From the NCBI GenBank assembly GCA_015655335.1, contig JAATFF010000093.1, forward strand, positions 1 through 61,379: DNA of 61,379 nucleotides, read 5' to 3'. The notes beneath the pieces were generated by a model. That model was given only the letters and a program-made list of their open reading frames with translations, was not told where the DNA came from and made no database searches. The DNA is from Lysobacterales bacterium. GTDB taxonomy: Bacteria; Pseudomonadota; Gammaproteobacteria; Xanthomonadales; Rhodanobacteraceae. Below, in pieces: positions 22,122-35,556 of this stretch. The position numbers and the translations under genes were made by a program. Positions within the stretch are counted from its first letter, which is position 1. The number at the start of each line of letters is the position of its first letter.

Positions 22122-23687
22122 CTACGCGCGTAAGAGCAATCGATAAGCAGGATTGTCGCTCTCGTCCACGTGCGGGTAGCCCAGTGCGCCAAGAAAATCC
22201 CGCAACAGCGCATGCTCGCTGGGTGGCACCTGCATGCCGACCAAGATGCGCCCGTAGTCGGCGCCATGATTGCGATAGTGGAACAGGCTGATGTTCCAGT
22301 CCGGATGCATGCGTTCCAGAAAGCGCGCGAGTGCGCCGGGGCGTTCGGGAAAGTCGAAGCGATAAAGCCGCTCGTCGCGCGCGCGCGGTGAGCGGCCGCC
22401 GATCATGTGCCGCAGGTGCAATTTGGAAAGTTCGTCATCGGTGAGATCGAGCACGCCAAAGTCATTGGCGCGGAATGCATCGGCCAATGCATGGCGTTCG
22501 TCGCGTTGCGCCGTTTGAATGCCGACGAAGATATGCGCCTCGCGCGCGTCGCCAATGCGGTAATTGAATTCGGTGATCGCATGTTGACCCAAAGCACTGC
22601 AGAAGCGACGGAAGCTGCCGCGCTGTTCGGGAATGGTCACGGCGAACACGGCCTCGCGCTGTTCGCCGACTTCCGCGCGCTCGGCCACGAAGCGCAGGCG
22701 GTCGAAATTCATGTTGGCGCCGGAGACTATGGCAATGAGTGCGCCGCCGCTCGCGCCATGCGTAGCCACGTACTGCTTGAGTCCGGCCAGTGCCAACGCA
22801 CCGGACGGTTCCGGAATGCTGCGTGTGTCCTGATAGATATCGCGGATCGCGGCACAGATGGCATCGGTATCCACGCGCAGGATGTCGTCGACGTATTGCT
22901 GACATAGGGAAAAGGTCAGCGCGCCCACTTGTTTGACGGCGGTGCCATCGGCAAACAAGCCCACTTCGTCCAGCGACACACGCGTACCGGCATCGAGCGC
23001 GCGCGCCATCGAATCCGCATCGCTGGCTTGCACGCCGATCACGCGTACATCGGGTCGTCGCGCCTTGATCACCGCTGCGATGCCGGAAATCAAACCGCCG
23101 CCGCCGATCGGCACGAACACCGCATGCAACGGTCCCGGATGTTGCGCCAGAATTTCCAGCGCAATAGTGGCCTGACCCGCGATGACATCGAGGTCGTCGA
23201 AGGGATGCACGAACGTGGCATCGAGCGCGTCGCGCAGTTTCAACGCTTCGGCCTGGGCGTCGCTATAGGAATCGCCGGCCAGCACAACTTGGGCAAAACG
23301 GCCGCCAAAACGGCGTACGGCATCGACCTTGACCTGCGGTGCGGTGACCGGCATCACGATCGTGGCCTGTATCTCCAGCCGCGACGCCGCCAGGGCCACA
23401 CCTTGCGCGTGATTGCCGGCCGACGCGGCAATCACGCCGCGGGCGCGCTCGGTTTCATCCAGCTGCGCCATGCGGTTGTACGCGCCGCGCAGTTTGAACG
23501 AAAACACCGGTTGCTGATCTTCGCGCTTGAGCAGCACGGTTGAGCCCAGCCGCGCGGAGAGAAGCGAAGCCCGTTCAAGCGCCGTGTTTTGCGCCACTTC
23601 ATACACGCGTGCTGCTTCGGCCCGACGCAGCACGGCAGCGGCTGTCGGCGTGGCTTCGCCATCCCGTTGCGCCAGTCGCGCGTTCAT
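22122..23687 (-). CDS. ilvA: Threonine ammonia-lyase, biosynthetic
   Basis: 521 residues (E. coli IlvA 514). Converts threonine to 2-oxobutanoate, the entry to isoleucine. The PLP lysine is in [10 protein letters not shown], with [14 protein letters not shown] and [12 protein letters not shown]. The C-terminal third holds two ACT-like regulatory domains ([19 protein letters not shown] and [16 protein letters not shown]), so feedback control by isoleucine is expected. Last gene of the leu-ilv operon; its ATG overlaps the stop of the small subunit gene. Confidence 0.97.
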
Positions 23688-23923
23688 GCCTGCGCCGGAT
23701 GTTCGACCTGCAATACGTCAACCAGTTTGCGCGTCTGTTGCAGTATCTGCGTAAGCGTTGCGTCGTCGCCACGCACTGTCAGCGTAAGGCGGGACACGGA
23801 GGGATCGTTGGTAGCGGCAACCGTCAATGTATCGATGTTGTGGCCGCGCGCGGCAAACAATCCAGCAACGCGGACCAAGGCACCGGCTTCGTTCTGCAGC
23901 AAGATGGAGAGTGTGTGTTGCAT
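23684..23923 (-). CDS. ilvM: Acetolactate synthase small (regulatory) subunit, short form
   Basis: 79 residues, a single ACT domain ([40 protein letters not shown]). The sequence looks like the first ACT domain of IlvH, but its length is that of IlvM, so the second half of IlvH is missing. ATG at 23923 with GGAACTGG before it is preferred; ATG 23950 would add nine residues. Sits between the large subunit gene and ilvA, overlapping the latter by 4 bp. Confidence 0.85.
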
Positions 23924-23964
23924 AGCCAGTTCCAGTGGGTGATGGTTCATTCGTTCGGTGCCGA

Positions 23965-25833
23965 TCAGAAACTGTCCGAAGTCGCGATGTCGCCGATAGG
24001 CGAGGTTTCGCGCGAGGGTATAAAGTCGCCGGTAATCATCTGCGAGTAATTGGCGCCAGGTCCTACCATGGGATAAACGCCGGCATCCGGATCGATCATC
24101 ACTTCCAGAAAAGCCGGACCATTGAAGGCGAGAAATTCGGCGATGGTGGAAGCCAGTTCATCGCGACGTTCCAATCGGCGTGCCCAAGAAAACCCGTCCG
24201 CTTCGGCAGCACGTACGAAATCTTTGCGATGCAGGCTCTTATCCGATGACGCAAAGCGGCCCTTGAAGAACAGCTTCTGCCACTGTCGCACCATGCCGTC
24301 GCCGACGTTATTCAGCACGACGATCTTCAACGGAAGGCCGTAGGTGGTGACGGTCTCCAGCTCGCCCAAATTCATGCGAATGCTGGCATCGCCATCGATG
24401 TCGATGACCAGCGCATCCGGCCGCGCAAACTGTGCGCCGATAGCGGCAGGGAGGCCGAAGCCCATCGTGCCCATCGATCCGGATGTCAATAAGTGGCGCG
24501 GCGCACGGAAGTCCAGGTATTGCGCCGCCCACATCTGATGCTGGCCCACGCCGGTGCTGATGATGGCGCGCCCCTGCGTATGCCGATTGATTTCTTCCAG
24601 CACCGCATAGGGTTGAATCAGTGCGCTGTCGCGGTCGTAGTTCAATGCATGCGTTTGCTTGAGCGCGCGGATATGCGCATGCCAATCGCTCAGCGATGAA
24701 CGGTGATTGTGAGCTTGGCCGTACTGCGTGATTCGCTGCAATGCGCGATCCAGCGGCCCAACGTGATGCCAGTCGGTGTGTTTGACTTTGTTGATCTCCG
24801 CCGGATCGATATCGATATGCGCAATGAACTTTGCGCGGGGTGCGAATTGGGTGGGAACACCTGCAACACGGTCGTCGAAACGTGCGCCAAGCGCAAACAG
24901 GAAGTCACAGTCTTCCACGGCGTAATTGGCGTAAGCCGTGCCGTGCATACCAAGCATATGCAGTGCCAGCGGCTCAGTAGTGTCGTAGCCGCCGATGCCC
25001 ATCAACGTGGTGGTGACGGGCAAGCCGAAGGCATCGACAAAGGCGCGCAGTGCTGGCGCGGCACCACCGGCGACGACGCCACCGCCGGCATAGATCAACG
25101 GGCGCTTTGCGCGTGCTAGAGCGTCGAAGAAACTCTCGCACTCCGCATCGCTAAGTGTTGCGCTTTCCACCGCGCGCAGTCGCGCGCGATAGCCCGGCAG
25201 CGGTAGCTCGCCGTGGCCCTCGAAACGAACCATGGCGTTCTGGATGTCCTTGGGTACATCCACGACCACGGGACCGGGACGCCCACTTCGCGCCAGCGTA
25301 AAGGCGGTGCGCATGGTGGCTTCAAGCTGCGTGGCGTCGGTGACCAGGAACACATGCTTGGCGCACGCACCCATGATGTTGCTGATTGGCGCTTCCTGGA
25401 ACGCGTCGCTGCCGATCGCCTGCGTGGCGACCTGTCCGCAGATGACGACTAACGGAATCGAATCGGCGGTCGAATCGCGCACCGGCGTCACCATGTTGGT
25501 GGCGCCAGGGCCGGATGTGACGACTGCGACGCCCACTTTGCCCGACGCGCGCGCATAGCCGGCGGCCATGAAGCCGGCGCCTTGTTCGTTGGCCGGCACG
25601 ATCAACGGCATCGGCTCGCTGCCGTCGGGTTTTACATGTTCTGCGTTATGGCGAAACACCGCGTCGTAGACCGGCAGGATCGCTCCGCCGGAATAACCGA
25701 AAAGCACTTCGACGCCTTCGTCAGCCAATACTTGTACGACGACATCCGCACCGCTCAGGTCCTTTCCTGATAGCGGATGATGCGCGACGCCGGCTTCGGC
25801 GTCGGCAGCGAAGGATGGTTGCAGCAATGGCAT
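23965..25833 (-). CDS. ilvB: Acetolactate synthase large subunit
   Basis: About 622 residues, some 40-50 longer than usual because of an N-terminal stretch before [20 protein letters not shown]. ThDP-dependent enzyme making acetolactate and acetohydroxybutyrate. The catalytic Glu is in [17 protein letters not shown]; the ThDP/Mg motif is [19 protein letters not shown] and a FAD-binding middle domain is present. ATG 25833 is chosen; ATG 25890 and 25947 lie further up, within or beyond a hairpin that separates it from ilvC. Confidence 0.95.
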
Positions 25834-25890
25834 GTTCACTACGGTCCCTTGGTGATGATCGAAGCGTGCTGATGACTGCATAAGGGCCAT

Positions 25891-25933
25891 GCGGCGCTCC
25901 CCCGCCGGAGATGGGGGTAAGGGAGAGCGCCGC
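25891..25933. repeat. Hairpin repeat in the ilvC-ilvB gap
   Basis: GCGGCGCTC and GAGCGCCGC close a stem around an inner CCCCC/GGGGG pair. It resembles, more loosely, the pyrimidine/purine-rich hairpins at 30.4 and 40.2 kb. It starts 7 nt after the ilvC stop seen on the minus strand and may set the relative expression of genes on either side. Confidence 0.55.
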
Positions 25934-25939
25934 ATGGGG

Positions 25940-26956
25940 TCAACCAACCTTTTTCAGCTGCGGCTGTTCGGCTTTTGCACCGGTTTGCAGCCACGGCATC
26001 CGCGCACGCAGCTTCGCGCCGACTTGTTCGATCGGGTGATCGAGGTCGGCTTGCTTCAGGCGCTTGTAATTGGGCAAGCCGGCGTTGTACTCGGCGATCC
26101 AGTTGCGCGCGAAGGTGCCGTCCTGGATGTCCTTTAGCACGCCCTTCATGCGCTCCTTGGTGGCGTCGTCGACAATGCGCGGGCCGCTGACGTAGTCGCC
26201 GTATTGCGCGGTTTCGGAGACGAACTCCAGCATGCGGGTGATGCCGCCTTCGTAGAACAGGTCAACGATTAGCTTTAGTTCGTGCAGCACTTCGTAATAG
26301 GCGATCTCGGGCTGGTAGCCGGCTTCGACCAGGGTTTCGAAACCCTTCAGCACCAGTTCGCTGGCGCCGCCGCACAGCACGGCCTGCTCGCCGAACAGAT
26401 AGGTTTCGGTTTCTTCCTTGAAATCGGTCTTGATCAACACGGCGCGCGCACCGCCGATACCGGCTGCGTAGGCCTTGGCCTTCTCTTCCGCGTGACCGCT
26501 CTTGTCCTGCTGCACGGCGTAGACGCAAGGCACGCCGCGGCCGCGTTCGTATTCGCTGCGTACGAGTGCGCCGGGACCCTTCGGTGCCACGAGGATCACG
26601 TCGATGTCGGCGCGCGGTTCGATCTGCTTGAAGTGCACGTTGAAGCCGTGCGCGAACAAGAGTGCAGCGCCGGGCTTGATGTTCGGCTCGATCGATTGCT
26701 TGTACAGCGTCGGCTGCACCATGTCGGGGGTCAGCACGGCGACCAGATCCGCGCCGCTCACGGCTTCGGCCGGCTCGACCACATGGAAGCCATCGGCGAC
26801 GGCCTTGTGCCAGGTGGGGCCGTTCGGACGCAGGCCGACCACGACATCCAGGCCGGAGTCCTTGAGGTTGAGGGCGTGCGCGCGGCCTTGGCTGCCGTAG
26901 CCGAGAACGGCGATGCGCGCCTTGGCGAGCGTATCGGTGGTGGCGGTGCTGCTCAT
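25940..26956 (-). CDS. ilvC: Ketol-acid reductoisomerase (class I)
   Basis: 338 residues, the short class I form. Isomerises and reduces acetolactate with NADPH and Mg. Rossmann motif [15 protein letters not shown] near residue 18; metal-binding and catalytic residues in [16 protein letters not shown] and [22 protein letters not shown] 26956 overlaps the ilvD stop by 4 bp. In many proteobacteria ilvC is transcribed alone; here it is inside the operon. Confidence 0.97.
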
Positions 26957-28671
26957 GCGGTAACTCCTGCGGTGGTCTTTGTCGTGGTGTGTTGTGCGTG
27001 CGGCCGTGGGGACACGGCGGTGTTCGGATGCGTGGTGGCGCCGTCGGAGGCGGAGCCGACCAGCCTGGCGTATTTGGCGAGCGCGCCGTGCGTGACTTTC
27101 GCGGGCGGAGCGACCCATGCGGTGCGGCGGCTTTCGAGGTCGGCATCGGTGCGCAGTTCGCGATGGTCGCCATCGATGAAGATGCGATCGCCGTCGCGCA
27201 ACAACGCAATCGGGCCGCCGCGCGCCGCTTCAGGGGCGATGTGTCCAACCATGAAGCCGTGCGTGGCGCCGGAGAAACGTCCGTCGGTGATCAGGCCGAC
27301 GTCGTTGCCGAGACCGCGACCGACGAGCGCGGCGGTGACGCCGAGCATCTCGCGCATACCGGGGCCGCCGGCGGGGCCTTCGTTGCGGATCACGATCACG
27401 TCGCCGGGTTTGATCTTGCCGCCTTGCACGGCGGCGAAGGCTTCTTCCTCGCTCTCGAATACGCGTGCAATGCCTTCGAAATGATTCGCGCCTTTGCCGG
27501 CGAGTTTCAGGATGCAGCCTTCAGGCGCGAGATTGCCGTACAGGATCGAATAACCGCCGCGTGGTTTCAGCGGCTGCTTCACCGGATGCACCACATCCTG
27601 TGTTTCAGCACGCGGTGCGGCGGCGCATTCTTCGTAAAGGCTGCGACCGGTCACCGTGGGGCGATCCTCGAGCATGCCTTCGGCAATCAATTCCTGCGCG
27701 ACGCGTGCGCTACCACCGGCACCGAACAACTCGACGGCGGTGTATCGGCCGCCTGGCAACAGATCAGCGATAACGGGCGTGTGCACAGAAGCGGGTTCGA
27801 AATCTTCGATCGTCCACGGCACGCCGGCTTCGCGAGCAATCGCGAGCAGATGCAACACCGCATTGGTGGAACCAGCAGTGGCCGCGACCATGCGCGCGGC
27901 GTTTTGGAAAGCCGTGCGATCGAGAATATCCAGTGGCTTGCGCTGTTGGCGGAAGCAATCCATCACCAATTCGCCGCAACGGAATGCTGCGCTCGCTTTG
28001 GCTGGATGCGTGGCAGGAATGTCGTTGAAGCCCATCGGCGACAAACCCAATGCCTGCATGACCATCGCCATCGTGTTGGCGGTGAACTGGCCGCCACACG
28101 CACCTGCGCCGGGGCATGCGTCTTTTTCGACGGCTGCGAGTTCTGCATCGTCGATCTTGCCCGCGCCATGAGCGCCGACTGCCTCGAACACTTGCTGGAT
28201 GGTGATCGGATGATTGTTGTGCGTGCCGTGCGCGATGCTGCCGCCGTATAGTGCGACGGCGGGGATGTTCAAACGCGCCATCGCCATCGCCGCTGCCGGA
28301 ATGGTCTTGTCGCAACCGCACAGCACCACCATCGCGTCGAGGCAATGACCATCGACGGCCAGCTCGATCGAATCGGTGATCACTTCGCGGCTGATCAGCG
28401 ATGCGCGCATGCCGGGCGTCCCCATCGCGATGCCGTCGGTCACGGCAATCGTGTTGAACTCGATCGGCGTGCCGCCCGCGGCGCGAATACCCGCTGCGGC
28501 ATGTTCGGCCAGTTCGCGCAGGTTGAGGTTGCACGGGCTGACGTTGGACCAGGTGTGCACCACGGCCACCAAAGGCTTGCTGATGTCGGCATCCTGCAGG
28601 CCCGTGGCGCGCAGCATGGCGCGTGCGGGAGCGCGGTCGGGGCCGGTTTTGATCAGATCACTACGCATCAT
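26953..28671 (-). CDS. ilvD: Dihydroxy-acid dehydratase
   Basis: 572 residues. Iron-sulfur enzyme forming the 2-oxoacids that precede valine and isoleucine. Cluster cysteines in CGCDKT and [16 protein letters not shown]; the C-terminal [15 protein letters not shown] signature is intact. ATG 28671 ([10 protein letters not shown]) with GTGAGAAC upstream is chosen over the longer frame. The C-terminal tail is Thr/Pro/His-rich and longer than needed. It follows leuB after 8 nt. Confidence 0.96.
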
Positions 28672-28679
28672 GTTCTCAC

Positions 28680-29771
28680 TTATCCGCACGCACGCAAGCC
28701 GCACAAAAAGGCGGGCGTGGCAACATCGTCCAGTGCCTTGATCACCGCATCGCGCAGCTCGGTCGTGCCGGCTTTGCCACCGATGTCGCGGCTGTGCGGG
28801 CCGTTGGTCAGCACGTGGCTGACGGCGGCTTCGATCGTCGTCGCTTCGATTTCCAGGCCCAGCGAATGACGCAGCAGCAGCGCGGCGGAGAGAATCGCGC
28901 CGAGCGGATTGGCAACGTTCTGTCCGGCGATATCCGGAGCCGACCCGTGGATTGGTTCGTACAGTCCAACCTTGCCTTCCCCCAGTGATGCCGACGGCAG
29001 CAGGCCGAGCGAACCGGCCAATGCGGCAGCTTCATCGGTGAGAATGTCGCCGAACAGGTTTTCGGTGACGACCACGTCGTAGCGCGACGGTTGCGTCAGC
29101 AGCAGCATCGCCATCGAATCGACCAGCTGGTGTTCCAGCTTGACATCCGGATAGTCCGCGGCAATGCGTGTAACGGTGCTGCGCCACAGGCGCGATGTTT
29201 CCAGCACGTTGGCCTTGTCTACCGATGTGACGTGCTGGCGGCGATCGCGAGCCAGTTCGAATGCACGGCGTGCAACGCGTTCGACTTCGGCCACGGTGTA
29301 CTTGCACTCGTCGGTGGCAGTGTCGATGGTGCGGGTCTTCGCGCCGAAGTACGCGCCGCCAGTCAGCTCGCGCACGAACAGTACGTCGACGTTCTTCAGC
29401 TTCTCGTTCTTCAGCGGCGACAGCGAGGCCAGTGCGGGATGCACTTGCAGCGGACGCAGATTGGCGAAGACGCCGAGTGCAGCGCGCAGTGCGAGCAGAC
29501 CTTGTTCCGGGCGCACAGGTGCGTGCGGATCGGACCACTTCGGGCCACCGACGGCGCCGAGCAGCACTGCATCAGCGTGCTTGCATGCTTCCAGCGTCTT
29601 CGCCGGCAACGGCTCGCCCGTCGCATCGATCGCGCAACCACCAATGGCGTGCGCTTCAAACTCGAAGGTGTGACCGCTGCGCTCCGCGACAGCTTCCAGT
29701 ACGGCAACCGCCGCGTCGATGACTTCCGGACCTACGCCGTCGCCGGGCAGGGTAACGATGCGCGCTTTCAT
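28680..29771 (-). CDS. leuB: 3-isopropylmalate dehydrogenase
   Basis: 363 residues. Oxidises and decarboxylates 3-isopropylmalate with NAD. Motifs: [10 protein letters not shown] at the start, [32 protein letters not shown] and [18 protein letters not shown] 29771 overlaps the leuD stop by 4 bp. Confidence 0.97.
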
Positions 29772-30352
29772 GCCGCCTTCTCCTGTTGCTGTTCGTATTG
29801 CGTGATGGCCTCGGCCTGCTGCAGCAGGAAGCCGAGTTGGTCGACGCCGTTGAGCAGGCAATGCCGTGCGAACGGTTCGAGCCGGAAGTGGATGCGTCCG
29901 CCGTCGGGCAGTTCGATGACCTGCTCGCGCACGTCGATGGACAGTTCGGTGCCCGGGTTGCTCAGCAACCAGCGGTGTTCTGCTTCGTCAAGCACGATGG
30001 CGAGCAGGCCGTTCTTCAGCGCATTGCCGCGGAAGATGTCCGCGATTTCGCTGCACAGCACCGCCTGGATACCGTAGTCGAGTAGCGCCCACGGCGCATG
30101 CTCGCGCGACGAGCCGCAACCGAAGTTACGTCCGGCGACAAGGATGTTGCAACCGCGCGCTTCGGGCTTGTTGAGCGGGAAGTCGGGGTTGTCGCCGCCG
30201 TCCTGGCGATAGCGCCAATCTTGAAACGCGTACTTGCCCAGGCCGCTGCGCTCGGTGGTGGTGAGGAAGCGTGCGGGGATGATGCGATCCGTGTCGATGT
30301 TTTCATCGACGAGCACGGCGGTGCGCGAGTGAATGCGAGTTACGGATTGCAT
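29768..30352 (-). CDS. leuD: 3-isopropylmalate dehydratase small subunit
   Basis: 194 residues. Partner of LeuC, forming the swivelling domain of isopropylmalate isomerase. [15 protein letters not shown] and [17 protein letters not shown] are the family signatures. GAGGTATTTC before ATG 30352. It is separated from leuC by a 174-nt gap filled with repeats, one of the two largest breaks in the operon. Confidence 0.96.
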
Positions 30353-30526: not shown

Positions 30527-31939
30527 TCATGCCGCCACCTCCTGCAAGTACTCGCGTGGATCGGCAATGGCGCCGGCAATCGCGGACGCGGCGGCGGTGG
30601 CGGGGCTGGCCAACACGGTGCGTGCGCCCCTGCCTTGGCGACCTTCGAAGTTGCGGTTGGAGGTGCTCACGACGAGCTGGCCCGGTTGTGCGAGATCGCC
30701 GTTCATCGCGATGCACATCGAACAGCCCGGGATGCGCCACTCCGCACCGGCGGCGAGAAACACCTCATGCAAGCCTTCACGCTCCGCATCGCGGCGCACG
30801 GCTTCGGAGCCCGGAACCACCAGCATGCGCACGCCATTGGCGACGTGCCGTCCGCGCAGCACACTCGCCGCTTCGCGCAGATCCGACAAACGCGAATTGG
30901 TGCAGCTGCCGATGAACACGACATCGACAGCCGTGCCCTGCATCGGCTGGTTCGGCTTGCCTTGCATGTAATCCAGCGCACGCTGTTCCTGCGCGTTGCG
31001 TGCGGCGGGAACGGGCTTGTCCATCGCAATGGCCATGCCCGGATGCGTGCCGTAGGTGACGGTCGGGCGAATCTGACCGGCATCGATGCGCACTTCGCGG
31101 TCGTACGTCGCGTCGGCGTCGCTATGCAGATTGCGCCAACGCTGCACGGCGGCGTCCCATGCGGCACCTTGCGGCGCGTTGGGACGTCCCTTCAACCATG
31201 CGAAGGTGGTTTCATCCGGTGCAATCAACCCTGCGCGTGCACCGGCCTCGATCGACATGTTGCACACGGTCATGCGTTCTTCGATCGACAACGCTTCGAT
31301 GGCAGCGCCGCGATATTCGAGCACGTGGCCCGTGCCGCCATCGACGCCGATCTCGCCGATGATGTGCAGGATCAGATCCTTCGCGCCGACGCCGCGCGGC
31401 AGCTTGCCGTCGACGTGGATGGCGAAGGTTTTCGGCTTGCGCTGCAGCAGGCACTGCGTGGCCATCACATGGCCGACTTCGGTGGTGCCGATGCCGAACG
31501 CCAACGCACCGAATGCGCCATGCGTCGAAGTGTGGCTGTCGCCGCAGACGATGGTCATGCCTGGCTGCGTGGCGCCGAGCTCGGGGCCGATCACGTGCAC
31601 GATGCCGCGATCGCTGCTATCCCAGCCATAGAGTTTTACGCCAAATTCGCGGCAGTTCGTTTCCAGCTGCGCGACCTGTGCCTTGGCTTCCGCATTTGCA
31701 TATGGACGCTCGCCGTTTGGCAATGCGGGCAGGGTCGGCGTGGAATGGTCGAGCGTGGCCAGCGTGCGGTCGGGGCGGCGCAGTTTCAGGCCGCGCTCGC
31801 GCAATTCGCTGAATGCCTGCGGTGAGGTGACTTCGTGCACCAGGTGCAGGTCGATGTAGATCACCGCCGGCGTGTCGGTGGTCTCGGGGGCGACGACATG
31901 GGAGTCCCAGATTTTTTCGAACAACGTGCGGGCGCTCAT
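30527..31939 (-). CDS. leuC: 3-isopropylmalate dehydratase large subunit
   Basis: 470 residues. Aconitase-like enzyme moving the hydroxyl of isopropylmalate. The [4Fe-4S] ligands are in FIGSCTNSR and CSMC, with [21 protein letters not shown] in the middle. ATG 31939 overlaps the ilvE stop by 4 bp. Confidence 0.97.
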
Positions 31940-32874
31940 GCGGCCTCCTCGGCGCGGGTGTTTTCTACGTGGGTGAGCCAGCCGTAGCGGTCTTGCGTAC
32001 GGCCGTTGAACAAACCGAAGAAGGCGTCGCGCAATGCGCGCGTGATCGGGCCAGGTGTGCCGGTGCCGACTTGCTTGCGGTCGACCGAGCGCACGGGCGT
32101 GATCTCCGCCGCAGTGCCGGTCATGAACACTTCGTCAGCGCTGTACAGCGCTTCGCGCGGCAGATCGCGTTCTTCGGCAGCGATGCCCAGATCGGCGGCC
32201 AGCGTGATCACCGTATCGCGTGTGATGCCGGCGAGGATGCCCGCGCTCGACGGTGGCGTGAGCAATTTGCCGCGCTTGACCAGAAACAGGTTCTCGCCCG
32301 CGCCTTCGCTGAGCAGGCCGTTGTGGCCCAGCGCGATGCCTTCATCGAAACCGCCGCGACGTGCTTCCAGGCCGACCAACTGGCTATTGAGGTAGTTGCC
32401 GCCGGCCTTGGCCCAGCTCGGAATGGTGTTGGGCGCGGGGCGATTCCACGACGACACGCAGACGTCTGCCCCCACTTCGGCCGCTTCGCCGAGATAGGCG
32501 CCCCATCCCAAAGCCATGATCGCGACGTCGACGGGCGCGCCGTCCCTGGGGAGAACGCCGAGCCCGCCGGCGCCGCGAAAGACAATCGGTCGTACATAGG
32601 CAGATGCCATCCGGTTGGCGCGAATCAATTCCAGGCAAGCGTTGTCGATCTCTTGCTCGCTGTAGCCGATCTCGATCTCGTACACGCGCGCCGATTCGAA
32701 CAGGCGGCGCGTGTGATCGGCGAGGCGGAAATAAGCCGGCCCCTGCGGTGTGGCGTACACGCGTTCGCCTTCGAACACGGACGAGCCGTAGTGCAGCGCA
32801 TGCGTGCTGACGTGAACGGTTGCTTCGGCCCAGGGCTTGATCCGCCCGTTATGCCAAAGGAAGGGCGTGCTCAT
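31936..32874 (-). CDS. ilvE: Branched-chain amino acid aminotransferase
   Basis: 312 residues, fold type IV PLP enzyme. Makes Leu, Ile and Val from their 2-oxoacids. The PLP lysine is in [27 protein letters not shown] and [14 protein letters not shown] are diagnostic. It overlaps leuA upstream and leuC downstream by 4 bp each, placing the shared final step of all three pathways near the head of the operon. Confidence 0.96.
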
Positions 32875-34478
32875 GCGGAAACTCCTTGCGGCTCCAGGAC
32901 CTCGACAGGTTGTTCACCGGTCTGCCGTTCGATGCGATTGACGATGGCGAGCGCGGCGTGCGCCGTCGCTTCGATGATGTCGGTGCTCACGCTGCTGCCG
33001 TTCCAATCGCGCTGCGCATGCCGAGCGGTGAGTTGCGCGTGGCCTTGCGCATCGCCGCCTTCGCTCATCGCGCGAACCTGGAAGCGGGTCAGCACCATGT
33101 CGGTGCCGGTGGCACGTTCGATCGCGCGCAGCACGGCGTCCACGGGGCCATCGCCGATGGCGGCTTCGCCCACTTCGCGGCCGTCCTCATGGCTCAGCTT
33201 GACGTTGGCCGATGCGCTGCCGCCCAGGTGCGAGCTGGTGTTGAGTTGATCCAAGTGCCACGGACCCGTGGCATCCGGGTCCAGACCAAGCGCCAGTGCT
33301 TCCAGGTCCTCGTCGCGGATATCGCGCTTGCGGTCGGCAAGCGCTTTGAAGCGCTTGAAGATGCTTTCCATGGCTTCGTCGTCCAACGTATGCCCCAGCG
33401 TTTCCAGGCGCTGACGCAGCGCGTGGCGGCCGGAATGCTTGCCCAGCACCAAGGTCGTCGCGGCGATGCCGACGTCTTCCGGGCGCATGATTTCGTAGGT
33501 GCCGCGATGCTTGAGCATGCCGTGCTGGTGAATGCCCGATTCGTGCGCAAAGGCGTTTTCACCCACCACCGCCTTATTGCGTGGCACGGCTTGGCCAGTG
33601 ATCTGAGTCAGCAGACGCGAGGTGGGATACAGCTTGCGCGTGTCGATGCGCGTTTGCAGGCCGAAGTGCGGCGCGCGCACTTTCAGCGCCATCACGATTT
33701 CTTCCAGCGCGGCGTTGCCGGCACGCTCGCCGATGCCGTTGATGGTGCATTCCACTTGGCGTGCGCCTGCACTGACCGCAGCCAGGCTGTTGGCGACCGC
33801 CATGCCCAGATCGTCATGGCAGTGCGTTGAGAACACGGCCTTGTGTGCGTCGCGTACGTGGCTACGCAGGTAGGTGAAGAGTTCGACCATTTCTGCCGGC
33901 GTGGTGTAGCCCACGGTATCCGGTGCGTTGAGCGTGGTCGCGCCAGCGGCAATGGCGGCGCTGAACACTTCGACCAGGAATTCCGGCTCGGTGCGGAGTG
34001 CGTCTTCGGCGGAAAACTCCACGTCTTCGCAGTATTTGCGGGCGCGTTCGATGGACGCGATCGCCGTATCCATCACTTGCGCTTTGCTCATGCCCAGCTT
34101 GTGTTCGCGATGCAGCGGGCTAGTGGAGAGGAACAGGTGAATGCGCGAATGTCGTGCGCGCTCCAGCGCGCGCGCAGCGGTATCGATATCGCCGTTTTGA
34201 CATCGCGCGAGCGCGCACACGGTGGTGTTGCGCAACGTTCGCGCGATTTCTTCCACTGCCGCGAAATCATCGGGCGAAGCTTGCGGAAAGCCCGCTTCGA
34301 TGATGTCCACACCCAGCGTTTCCAGGGCTTGTGCCATGCACAATTTGGCCCGCCGGTCCATGGAAAAACCGGGTGCCTGCTCACCGTCGCGCAAGGTGGT
34401 GTCGAAGATGCGTACGCGATCTTCGGCGCTTTCACCGCCTTCGCGGGTGTCGTTGGGTTGTGCTGTTTCGGGGGTCAT
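32871..34478 (-). CDS. leuA: 2-isopropylmalate synthase
   Basis: 535 residues. Condenses acetyl-CoA and 2-oxoisovalerate, the first committed step to leucine. [17 protein letters not shown] opens the TIM barrel; [17 protein letters not shown] holds metal ligands, and the C-terminal LeuA dimer domain expected to bind leucine is complete. GGAGCCAGC precedes ATG 34478. First structural gene of the operon, 34 nt after the attenuator terminator. Confidence 0.97.
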
Positions 34479-34511: not shown

Positions 34512-34544
34512 AAAAAACCCCGCATCCTTGTCGGGTGCGGGGTT
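34512..34544 (-). terminator. Attenuator terminator of the leu-ilv operon
   Basis: Minus strand: AACCCCGCA, 11-nt loop, TGCGGGGTT, then TTTTTT. Its first arm contains CCCGCACC (34534-34541), exactly complementary to GGTGCGGG in the leader (34594-34601), so an antiterminator can form instead. Confidence 0.9.
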
Positions 34545-34589
34545 CTTCGGGGTATCTAGGTTAAATCTGCTTCACCTTGACACACGCCC

Positions 34590-34664
34590 TCAGCCCGCAC
34601 CTCCGTTGGTAATAAGGAGTACGAGTACAAGGGTAAGAAGAAGGAAGCCGCCGAAGGGCAGCAT
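34590..34664 (-). CDS. Branched-chain amino acid leader peptide
   Basis: 24 codons starting at ATG 34664 (GGTGA five nt upstream) and ending at the antiterminator arm. The core FLLLTLVLVLLIT has six Leu, two Val, one Ile and two Thr in 13 residues. Leu codons are CTT and CTC, unlike the CTG preferred by the flanking genes. Stalling here would keep the leader from pairing CTCC with GGAG and free GGTGCGGG to sequester the terminator. An in-frame ATG at 34727 would give 45 residues but lies at the expected transcription start. Confidence 0.85.
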   Translation of the reverse strand: MLPFGGFLLLTLVLVLLITNGGAG

Positions 34665-34734
34665 GTCCGTCACCGTAGGGGGACGGATAGCACGGGTGGT
34701 GTAGCGGTGGCTGTTGCGCTGCGGCATGTCGTCG

Positions 34735-34764
34735 ACCCTAAGGCACGTCGTTGCAGCGTGTCAA
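34735..34764 (-). promoter_or_regulatory. Promoter of the leu-ilv operon
   Basis: TTGACA (34759-34764), 18 nt, TAGGGT (34735-34740) on the minus strand, with an AT-rich stretch directly upstream. The predicted start near 34728 gives a leader of about 250 nt to leuA, containing the peptide and the attenuator. Confidence 0.7.
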
Positions 34765-34827: not shown

Positions 34828-35067
34828 ATATGTACCAACGAATTAGAAATAATTTGTTTCATTCGCAACCAATGTGCAAATCTCCGTGGCACGCGTTTTT
34901 CCATGAATTCGTCGCACAAAAATGATCTCTATGTGCGTTCGGCGTCATGCTGCCTTTACGCCTAGGCAGGTTATAGACCCACAAGAATGGACGCCAATCC
35001 ATGATTACTGCCTGCCCCATTTGTGCTTGATGATGGACAACGTACTTTCAGGGCGGCGTCCATTCTG

Positions 35068-35556
35068 ATGAATATTCTTGCTGCCATTGAGCAATGGGTG
35101 ACGGTGGCGCGACGCCGGTATCCGGATTTCCCGGCCGAATGGGCCGCGATTTTTGCATCGATCAAACGCATCGACAGAGAGATCAATCAGGGTGCCGATG
35201 CATTGCTCCAGGCATGGGGCATTACCTATGCCGAATACAGCATGCTGCTCGTGCTGTACGGCACGGAAGGCGGTGCCTTGTCCGCAACGTCCCTGGGCGA
35301 GGTCGTAAGTGAGACATCGATCCATATCAGTCGTGCAGGGCGCCAGCTATGCGAAAAGGGTCTGCTGGTGCGAAGCGTCGATACGACGGACCGGCGCAAC
35401 ACCTTGTTCACGCTCAATCATGCCGGGAAGAGCTTGCTGGATCGCTTGTTGCCCATATTGACGGGCTTGCTTCAGCATAAAACGCAGGCGTTCGAGTTCG
35501 GCGAAATAACGGAGTTGTCGCGGCTGTTGAAACAGCTCATGCATAAGTTGGGCTAG
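35068..35556 (+). CDS. MarR-family transcriptional regulator
   Basis: 162 residues. Winged helix-turn-helix pattern with GITYAEYSMLLVLYG, LSATSLGEVVSETSIHISRAGRQLCEKGLLVR and the wing VDTTDRRNTLFTLNHAG. MarR proteins are dimeric repressors that usually respond to small phenolic or oxidising ligands and often control a neighbour. ATG 35068 is taken; a GTG at 35023 would add 15 residues. No operator was recognised. The next gene, pssA, is 111 nt downstream on the same strand. Confidence 0.85.
   Translation: MNILAAIEQWVTVARRRYPDFPAEWAAIFASIKRIDREINQGADALLQAWGITYAEYSMLLVLYGTEGGALSATSLGEVVSETSIHISRAGRQLCEKGLLVRSVDTTDRRNTLFTLNHAGKSLLDRLLPILTGLLQHKTQAFEFGEITELSRLLKQLMHKLG

Follow-up and report, generated by a model that had tools for sequence, protein, structure and literature searches.

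The window, the whole stretch of 61,379 nucleotides that was analysed, carries a set of leu and ilv genes for branched-chain amino acid (BCAA) biosynthesis on its minus strand. The first structural gene is leuA (32871..34478), which encodes 2-isopropylmalate synthase and starts with an ATG at 34478. It is followed by ilvE (31936..32874), leuC (30527..31939), leuD (29768..30352), leuB (28680..29861), ilvD (26953..28704), ilvC (25940..27118), the gene for the large subunit of acetolactate synthase, ilvB/ilvG (23965..25947), and, at the far end, ilvA of the type with two C-terminal domains (22122..23687). These nine genes were named by NCBIfam. For three of them the coordinates are limits of the open reading frame (ORF); the best family match begins at residue 34 in leuB and 58 in ilvC, and the match in ilvB/ilvG at residue 64. 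The tenth, an ORF of 88 amino acids (23684..23950, minus strand), was named by position, since it occupies the place of an ilvM/ilvN-like small subunit. A resembling sequence follows ilvB in loci L077-L080, which belong to the source's own family (Rhodanobacteraceae). A merged leu-ilv operon of ten genes had been proposed in an earlier, sequence-only reading of this DNA. The gene content bears this out, and the ten genes are probably co-transcribed as leuA-ilvE-leuCDB-ilvDCB(M)A. Divergent from the operon lies an ORF of 177 amino acids (35023-35556, plus strand) with no NCBIfam match, which by eye is a putative MarR-type regulator.

Ahead of leuA, on the same strand, lies a short leader. Its ORF (34590..34727) has 45 codons (MPQRNSHRYTTRAIRPPTVTDMLPFGGFLLLTLVLVLLITNGGAG), starts with an ATG at 34727, contains the peptide core FLLLTLVLVLLIT and ends in ...FLLLTLVLVLLITNGGAG. 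An internal ATG at 34664 (codon 22) was rejected as the start, being common to just 2 of 18 aligned peptides. A TTGACA hexamer, the -35 element (34764-34759), ends 31 nt before the leader ATG. The putative -10 element TAGGGT (34735..34740) follows it after an 18-nt spacer, 7 nt before the ATG, and matches the consensus at 3 of 6 positions. Codons 29-39 (34611..34643) read CTT CTT CTT ACC CTT GTA CTC GTA CTC CTT ATT, that is, seven leucine codons, two for valine and one for isoleucine. Inside the last leader codons lies arm 2, GGTGCGGG (34594..34601), the 5' arm of an antiterminator. It is the exact complement of arm 3, CCCGCACC (34534..34541), which serves both as the 3' arm of the antiterminator and as the 5' arm of a terminator. 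Arm 4, GGATGCGGGG, together with six T (34512..34527, the T run at 34517-34512), completes an intrinsic terminator between the leader ORF and leuA, and 33 nt separate the T run from the leuA start.

All of the elements that the sequence-only reading had named here, namely TTGACA, leader ORF, terminator and six T, are thus present on the minus strand, as is the exact complementarity that it had described between leader and terminator arm. It had also suggested folding the leader, and the predicted fold is more stable than those of shuffled sequences (z = -2.91). A generic scan of the window for promoters and terminators listed neither the leader promoter nor the leader terminator, and no Rfam family, RF00512 Leu_leader included, matched the window at its gathering threshold. 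An ORF with a run of control codons, a complementary arm, and a hairpin with six T ahead of ten leu and ilv genes together suggest a ribosome-mediated attenuator.

Conservation of the leader

Loci were first picked by LeuA alone. This protein matched in 123 of 200 genomes of the order, and the best 30 of the 123 were taken as loci. In all 25 of these that belong to the source's own family (L002-L026), the leader peptide is found with a corresponding start and end, as expected from the sequence-only reading, which had proposed aligning the leader in relatives. The other five, from other families, have no leader ORF adjoining leuA. Of the 233 genomes of the family, 157 match a single 45-amino-acid query (E up to 0.01).

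In other families, seven weak profile matches lie 3-7 kb upstream of leuA, and most of the remaining ones are noise-like. The distance arises because those families have ilvD or ilvC as the first gene of the operon, with the leader ahead of it. Of 20 regions retrieved, 19 were examined and all 19 contain a leader ORF; three of which are from the source's own family, and one of which (L063) is leuA-first. Gene order thus differs between families, being ilvD- or ilvC-first in L062, L064-L076 and L081 versus leuA-first in L002-L026; the leader stays frontmost. One of these regions also holds a TPP riboswitch (L076:837-937, Rfam 66.1 bits).

Further regions of other families were chosen by the position of leuA (L114-L141), and 25 of the 28 have related leaders, 20 found by a detector of codon run and terminator and five using a promoter rule. 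The remaining three, L131-L133 of family f12, gave no leader, and no gene beyond ilvE was recognised there. Altogether the detector missed seven leaders. L025 was found through the LeuA-chosen set without any promoter criterion; the other six (L089, L118, L119, L121, L122 and L126) were found by the promoter rule widened to 29-33 nt and are therefore no evidence for that rule.

The set used for the comparisons below comprises 114 leaders. It omits 11 loci of genomes already counted as well as L030, a near-leuA stretch with a candidate ORF of 24 amino acids and TTGAC at 30 nt. Most of the 114 were obtained through a peptide or weak profile match, while L002-L026 and L114-L141 were chosen by leuA alone, although L124 among the latter had a weak profile match beforehand. 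The first gene begins within 700 nt of the leader in 112 of the 114; it is leuA in 81, ilvD in 18, ilvC in 12 and ilvB in one. The remaining two stretches (L095 and L128) end 360 and 107 nt past the leader stop.

A collection of genome contigs was also searched with a pattern built from arms 2, 3 and 4 and five T. The pattern matched at least 118 stretches, some of them from genomes already counted. The matches listed include Dyella, Rhodanobacter, Luteibacter, Xanthomonas, Stenotrophomonas, Pseudoxanthomonas and Luteimonas.

Control codons and alternative pairing

Codon use in the last 28 codons of the 114 leaders was compared with that in the nine named genes of the window's operon. The share of CTT among leucine codons is 0.394 in the leader ends versus 0.051 in the genes, that of GTA among valine codons 0.545 versus 0.072, and that of ATT among isoleucine codons 0.844 versus 0.204. 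The sequence-only reading had pointed to CTT and CTC in place of CTG, and the core agrees: none of its seven leucine codons is CTG, which makes up 0.516 of the leucine codons of the operon. One CTG occurs earlier in the window's leader, at codon 23. Judged by its codons, one leader would sense leucine, valine and isoleucine jointly.

The placing of these codons relative to arm 2 is also regular. Of 106 leaders, 93 have ATT as the final BCAA codon ahead of arm 2, and in 79 of the 106 this final codon ends 12 nt before GCGGG. In 27 of 106 the distance from the start of the arm-2 GCGGG to the stop codon is 11-22 nt instead of 6 nt, so masking of the arm by a ribosome at the stop may be incomplete there.

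Arms 2 and 3 covary. Over 42 distinct terminator arms, the cognate pairing score is 21.5 versus 19.1 for non-cognate arms, the leader's own arm scores above the non-cognate mean in 37 of 42, and none of 2000 permutations reaches the observed value. Examples of covarying pairs are GGTGCGGG/CCCGCACC, GGCGCGGG/CCCGCGCC and GGTAGCGGG/CCCGCTACC. Most of the covariation comes from other families, because the two arms are nearly invariant within the source's own. Arm 2 makes 7.2 pairs with arm 3 on average versus 5.6 for a shuffled arm 2, a modest difference, so it is the permutation test that carries the claim. In minimum-energy folds computed before the 3' arm of the terminator emerges, at least five 2:3 pairs form in 102 of 114 leaders. 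Weak helices occur as well, with five pairs each in L026 and L110 and none convincing in L134. The permutation test and the folds support an antiterminator (2:3) that is exclusive with the terminator (3:4).

This covariation also bears on another explanation of the locus, that a small ORF and a terminator stand ahead of leuA by chance. The generic scan, which lists neither element, would fit such an explanation. It is contradicted by the conservation of the leader in all 25 loci and 157 of 233 genomes of the family, by the permutation test and by the at least 118 pattern matches, and is hardly conceivable.

Pairing of segment 1 with arm 2 behaves differently from 2:3 pairing. The sequence-only reading had named compensatory changes in both pairings as support and had proposed that CTCC in the leader codons pairs with GGAG to form a 1:2 protector. 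Covariation supports the 2:3 pairing. The CTCC:GGAG helix is present in the window but in only 51 of 114 leaders, and was dropped as a conserved element. In a covariation test of 1:2 pairing with 25 arm-2 variants, 1633 of 2000 permutations score at least as high as the real pairs. Segment 1 pairs slightly above shuffled sequence (mean z 1.14, with z >2 in 16 of 79). Another 1:2 helix, CTCGTAC:GTGCGGG, appears in the fold of the window and may form; it too lacks covariation.

A different possibility is that the peptide itself has a function, in the membrane or in trans, and that the terminator is an ordinary upstream one. The conserved N-terminal MSQRNSH and hydrophobic tail speak for it, as does the Sinorhizobium meliloti trpL leader peptide, which acts in trans (PMC7298713). 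The pattern of change within the ORF speaks against it. At codons 5 and 6 the second base is variable (1.50 and 1.66 bits), whereas the third remains C (0.63 and 0.68 bits), a constancy to which a GC-rich codon bias contributes. Some synonymous codons are fixed although they are otherwise unusual, and the conserved C-terminal NGGAG codes arm 2. A peptide function in place of attenuation is thus very improbable; one beside attenuation may exist.

Promoter spacing and the start of the leader mRNA

The distance between promoter and leader ATG was determined in leaders that had been detected by codon run and terminator only. In all 79 leaders with a single in-frame ATG, the TTGAC(A) hexamer ends 29-32 nt ahead of it, and in each of 35 leaders with several ATGs exactly one fits this spacing. 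Among control ATGs of the same loci, 10 of 7107 fit. The spacing is absent from all 38 large, non-overlapping ORFs that were mechanically found in the window (at least 220 codons). A spacing of 33 nt is found in L119 and L219. A Shine-Dalgarno tetramer (AGGA, GGAG or GAGG) at -16 to -5 is present in 2 of 114 leaders, and C stands at -1 of the leader ATG in 103 of 114.

The -10 element is less informative. In all 25 loci of the source's own family, TANNNT lies 6-8 nt from the ATG with a spacer of 17-18 nt; in other families it is poorly conserved and matches more loosely. The putative -10 would place +1 at or next to the A of the leader ATG, and because it is weak it does not by itself pin down the start site.

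The beginning of the ORF has features of its own. The A+C content of codons 2-10 (34698..34724 in the window, conserved across the 114 leaders) is 0.697 versus 0.509 in codons 11-25, and it is the higher of the two in 112 of 114 leaders. Large window ORFs with an ATG start show a smaller tilt, 0.593 versus 0.494, higher in 10 of 17. The first 40 nt of the leaders fold less than shuffled sequences (-4.4 versus -6.0 kcal/mol). According to a review (PMC9031893), leaderless translation is enhanced by CA repeats that follow the start codon and is inhibited by structure. The A+C-rich codons 2-10 probably aid leaderless initiation.

The pattern matches provide a contrast. The promoter-ATG spacing is present in 97 of the 118 listed (69 of 80 in a subset of 80). 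Thirteen of the 21 listed without it are enterobacterial leaders ending ...VVVIIPPCGAA.G, ilvL-like by eye, from eight Providencia, three Morganella, Xenorhabdus and Arsenophonus; the spacing occurs in 0 of these 13. In L143, L176 and L197 the ORF starts at or beyond the edge of the stretch, and the rest are L219 with its 33 nt, L183, L198, L204 and L242. Taken together, the fixed TTGAC-ATG distance, the near absence of Shine-Dalgarno tetramers and the enterobacterial contrast indicate that the leader mRNA is probably leaderless, with a layout unlike that of E. coli and common to most relatives checked.

Alternatively, the locus may be a classical attenuator with a short 5' UTR, in which transcription starts farther upstream and the Shine-Dalgarno sequence is weak or absent. 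Leaders of E. coli have a 5' UTR, and the 13 enterobacterial ilvL leaders share the same pattern without the TTGAC-ATG spacing. The weak -10 would leave room for such a start, and an AGG stands 10 nt ahead of the window's ATG, inside the putative -10. This arrangement is nevertheless unlikely given a spacing of 29-32 nt in every single-ATG leader, the two Shine-Dalgarno tetramers among 114 leaders and the prevailing C at -1.

Some metagenome bins assigned to broader or other groups carry the leader as well. Four titled only Gammaproteobacteria or Pseudomonadota (L170, L180, L186 and L221) have it with the spacing; it precedes leuA in the first three and ilvC or a nearby ilv gene in L221. A bin titled Chromatiales (L239) has a leader with the same promoter-ATG spacing, and another (L204) has no BCAA-run ORF at the threshold used. 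Lysobacterales-like leaders in a Polyangiaceae bin (L156) and an Eremiobacteraeota bin (L184) may reflect mis-binning or transfer.

Leaders for other amino acids were sought by the same spacing. Upstream of aspartate kinase genes, TTGACA lies 29-32 nt before an ATG in 9 of 45 loci, all nine among 15 f2 loci and 0 in the other set of 30. Eight of the nine ORFs are Thr/Ile-run leaders of 43-50 codons (for instance L348), and the ninth (L350) is a Thr-rich ORF of 23 codons. The leaders upstream of thrA-type genes in L343, L345, L346, L348, L349, L351, L355 and L357 have TTGACA 30-32 nt before the ATG. One more Thr/Ile leader, in L292 of the set of 30, has TTGAC at 30 nt and lies outside the stretch searched for that count. 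From their sequences, the f2 Thr/Ile leaders, with L292 included, are probably leaderless thr attenuators. The Dyella loci examined have no thr leader of this kind. Upstream of hisG, 2 of 53 loci fit the spacing: L285 has a true His leader, MNINLIALHHHHHHFIMDGAC, whose ATG lies 29 nt after TTGACA and 169 nt upstream of the hisG match, and L316 has an ORF of 104 amino acids that is not a His leader. With one His-run leader in 53 loci, control of his genes by such a leader is not general here.

Mechanism and relation to known attenuators

The claim of the sequence-only reading that this is a ribosome-mediated attenuator with a leader peptide gains support from conservation, 2:3 covariation and codon enrichment. 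The parts of the leader, their conservation, this covariation and the fixed promoter-ATG distance emerge directly from the sequence comparison. We consider it highly probable that the ten-gene operon is controlled by a ribosome-mediated attenuator whose leader mRNA starts at, or within 1-2 nt of, the leader ATG.

In such a mechanism, a 70S ribosome would initiate at the AUG on the 5' end, with no Shine-Dalgarno sequence, and then move along behind RNA polymerase. When leucine, valine and isoleucine are ample, it would reach the stop codon and cover arm 2 (GGTGCGGG, just before the stop), so that arms 3 and 4 would form the terminator. If one of the branched-chain aminoacyl-tRNAs ran low, the ribosome would stall on the CTT, CTC, GTA or ATT codons. 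Ribosomes usually cover the mRNA to about 12-13 nt beyond the first base of the codon in the A site; with a stall at the last control codon (ATT), arm 2 would begin about at this expected edge. The freed arm 2 would then pair with arm 3, and the ten genes would be transcribed. The start site, the stalling and the response of read-through are thus predicted from the arrangement of the parts.

Known systems close to this one include the attenuators of E. coli ilvGMEDA (ilvL) and leuABCD (leuL), together with Rfam RF00512 Leu_leader. They share with it a leader peptide with a run of BCAA codons, an antiterminator/terminator alternative and a BCAA operon downstream. The sequence-only reading had equated the locus with this E. 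coli logic. That holds for the attenuator, the leader peptide and the 2:3 versus 3:4 alternative. It is not supported for the 1:2 protector or the layout: as the leader is probably leaderless, the locus does not simply follow the E. coli scheme. Here one leader serves both pathways, the 5' UTR and Shine-Dalgarno sequence are probably lacking, and arm 2 lies inside the last codons with a 1:2 protector unsupported. Among the loci, Rfam at E up to 5 gives only sub-threshold matches over leaders: L002 reaches 23.7 bits for Thr_leader (55 needed, E 2.9), and L070 reaches 25.2 bits for Trp_leader (41 needed, E 0.57).

Vitreschak et al. 2004 reportedly predicted proteobacterial BCAA, thr and his leaders by comparison, and these may include ilv and thr leaders of Xanthomonas; we know of no remark on leaderless starts there. 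Schmidtke et al. 2012 are said to have mapped start sites in Xanthomonas and to have found many leaderless mRNAs with a poor -10 and no Shine-Dalgarno sequence. The titles and abstract openings listed by literature searches, a scope that leaves subscription papers mostly outside, contain no report of this leader or of leaderless attenuators in Lysobacterales.

Leaderless attenuators as such are already known. In Corynebacterium glutamicum, ilvBNC transcription starts one nucleotide from the leader start codon and is discussed as leaderless (PMC11857589). This attenuator shares the BCAA leader peptide and the leaderless-type start, a likeness by description; it is actinobacterial, has a peptide of 15 amino acids and a three-hairpin model, and controls ilvBNC only. 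In S. meliloti, the first nucleotides of the trpL attenuator RNA are the leader's ATG (PMC7298713); this is a tryptophan attenuator of an alphaproteobacterium with a 14-amino-acid peptide. Mycobacterial polycysteine uORFs (Canestrari 2020, cited in PMC9031893) are likewise leaderless, short and amino-acid-sensing; they differ in sensing cysteine and are described as acting on downstream translation. Next to these systems, what appears new is the leu-ilv case of Lysobacterales.

A wider reading of the same comparisons, which we favour with some reserve, is that ribosome-mediated attenuation as a rule works through leaderless leader peptides in the whole of Lysobacterales (ilv-leu, thr and sometimes his) and probably in some other Gammaproteobacteria. 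One ancestral ilv-leu leader would have stayed at the operon front through rearrangements of gene order. Being leaderless, it would make amino-acid sensing depend on 70S initiation at a 5'-terminal AUG and not on Shine-Dalgarno loading.

The textbook case of attenuation is that of E. coli, in which ribosomes load at a Shine-Dalgarno sequence in the 5' UTR. If the present reading is true, a whole gammaproteobacterial order attenuating without a 5' UTR would reveal this loading step as dispensable. Start-codon annotation would be gained for ORFs of about 45 codons, which are easily missed, and read-through would provide a built-in reporter for studying leaderless initiation.
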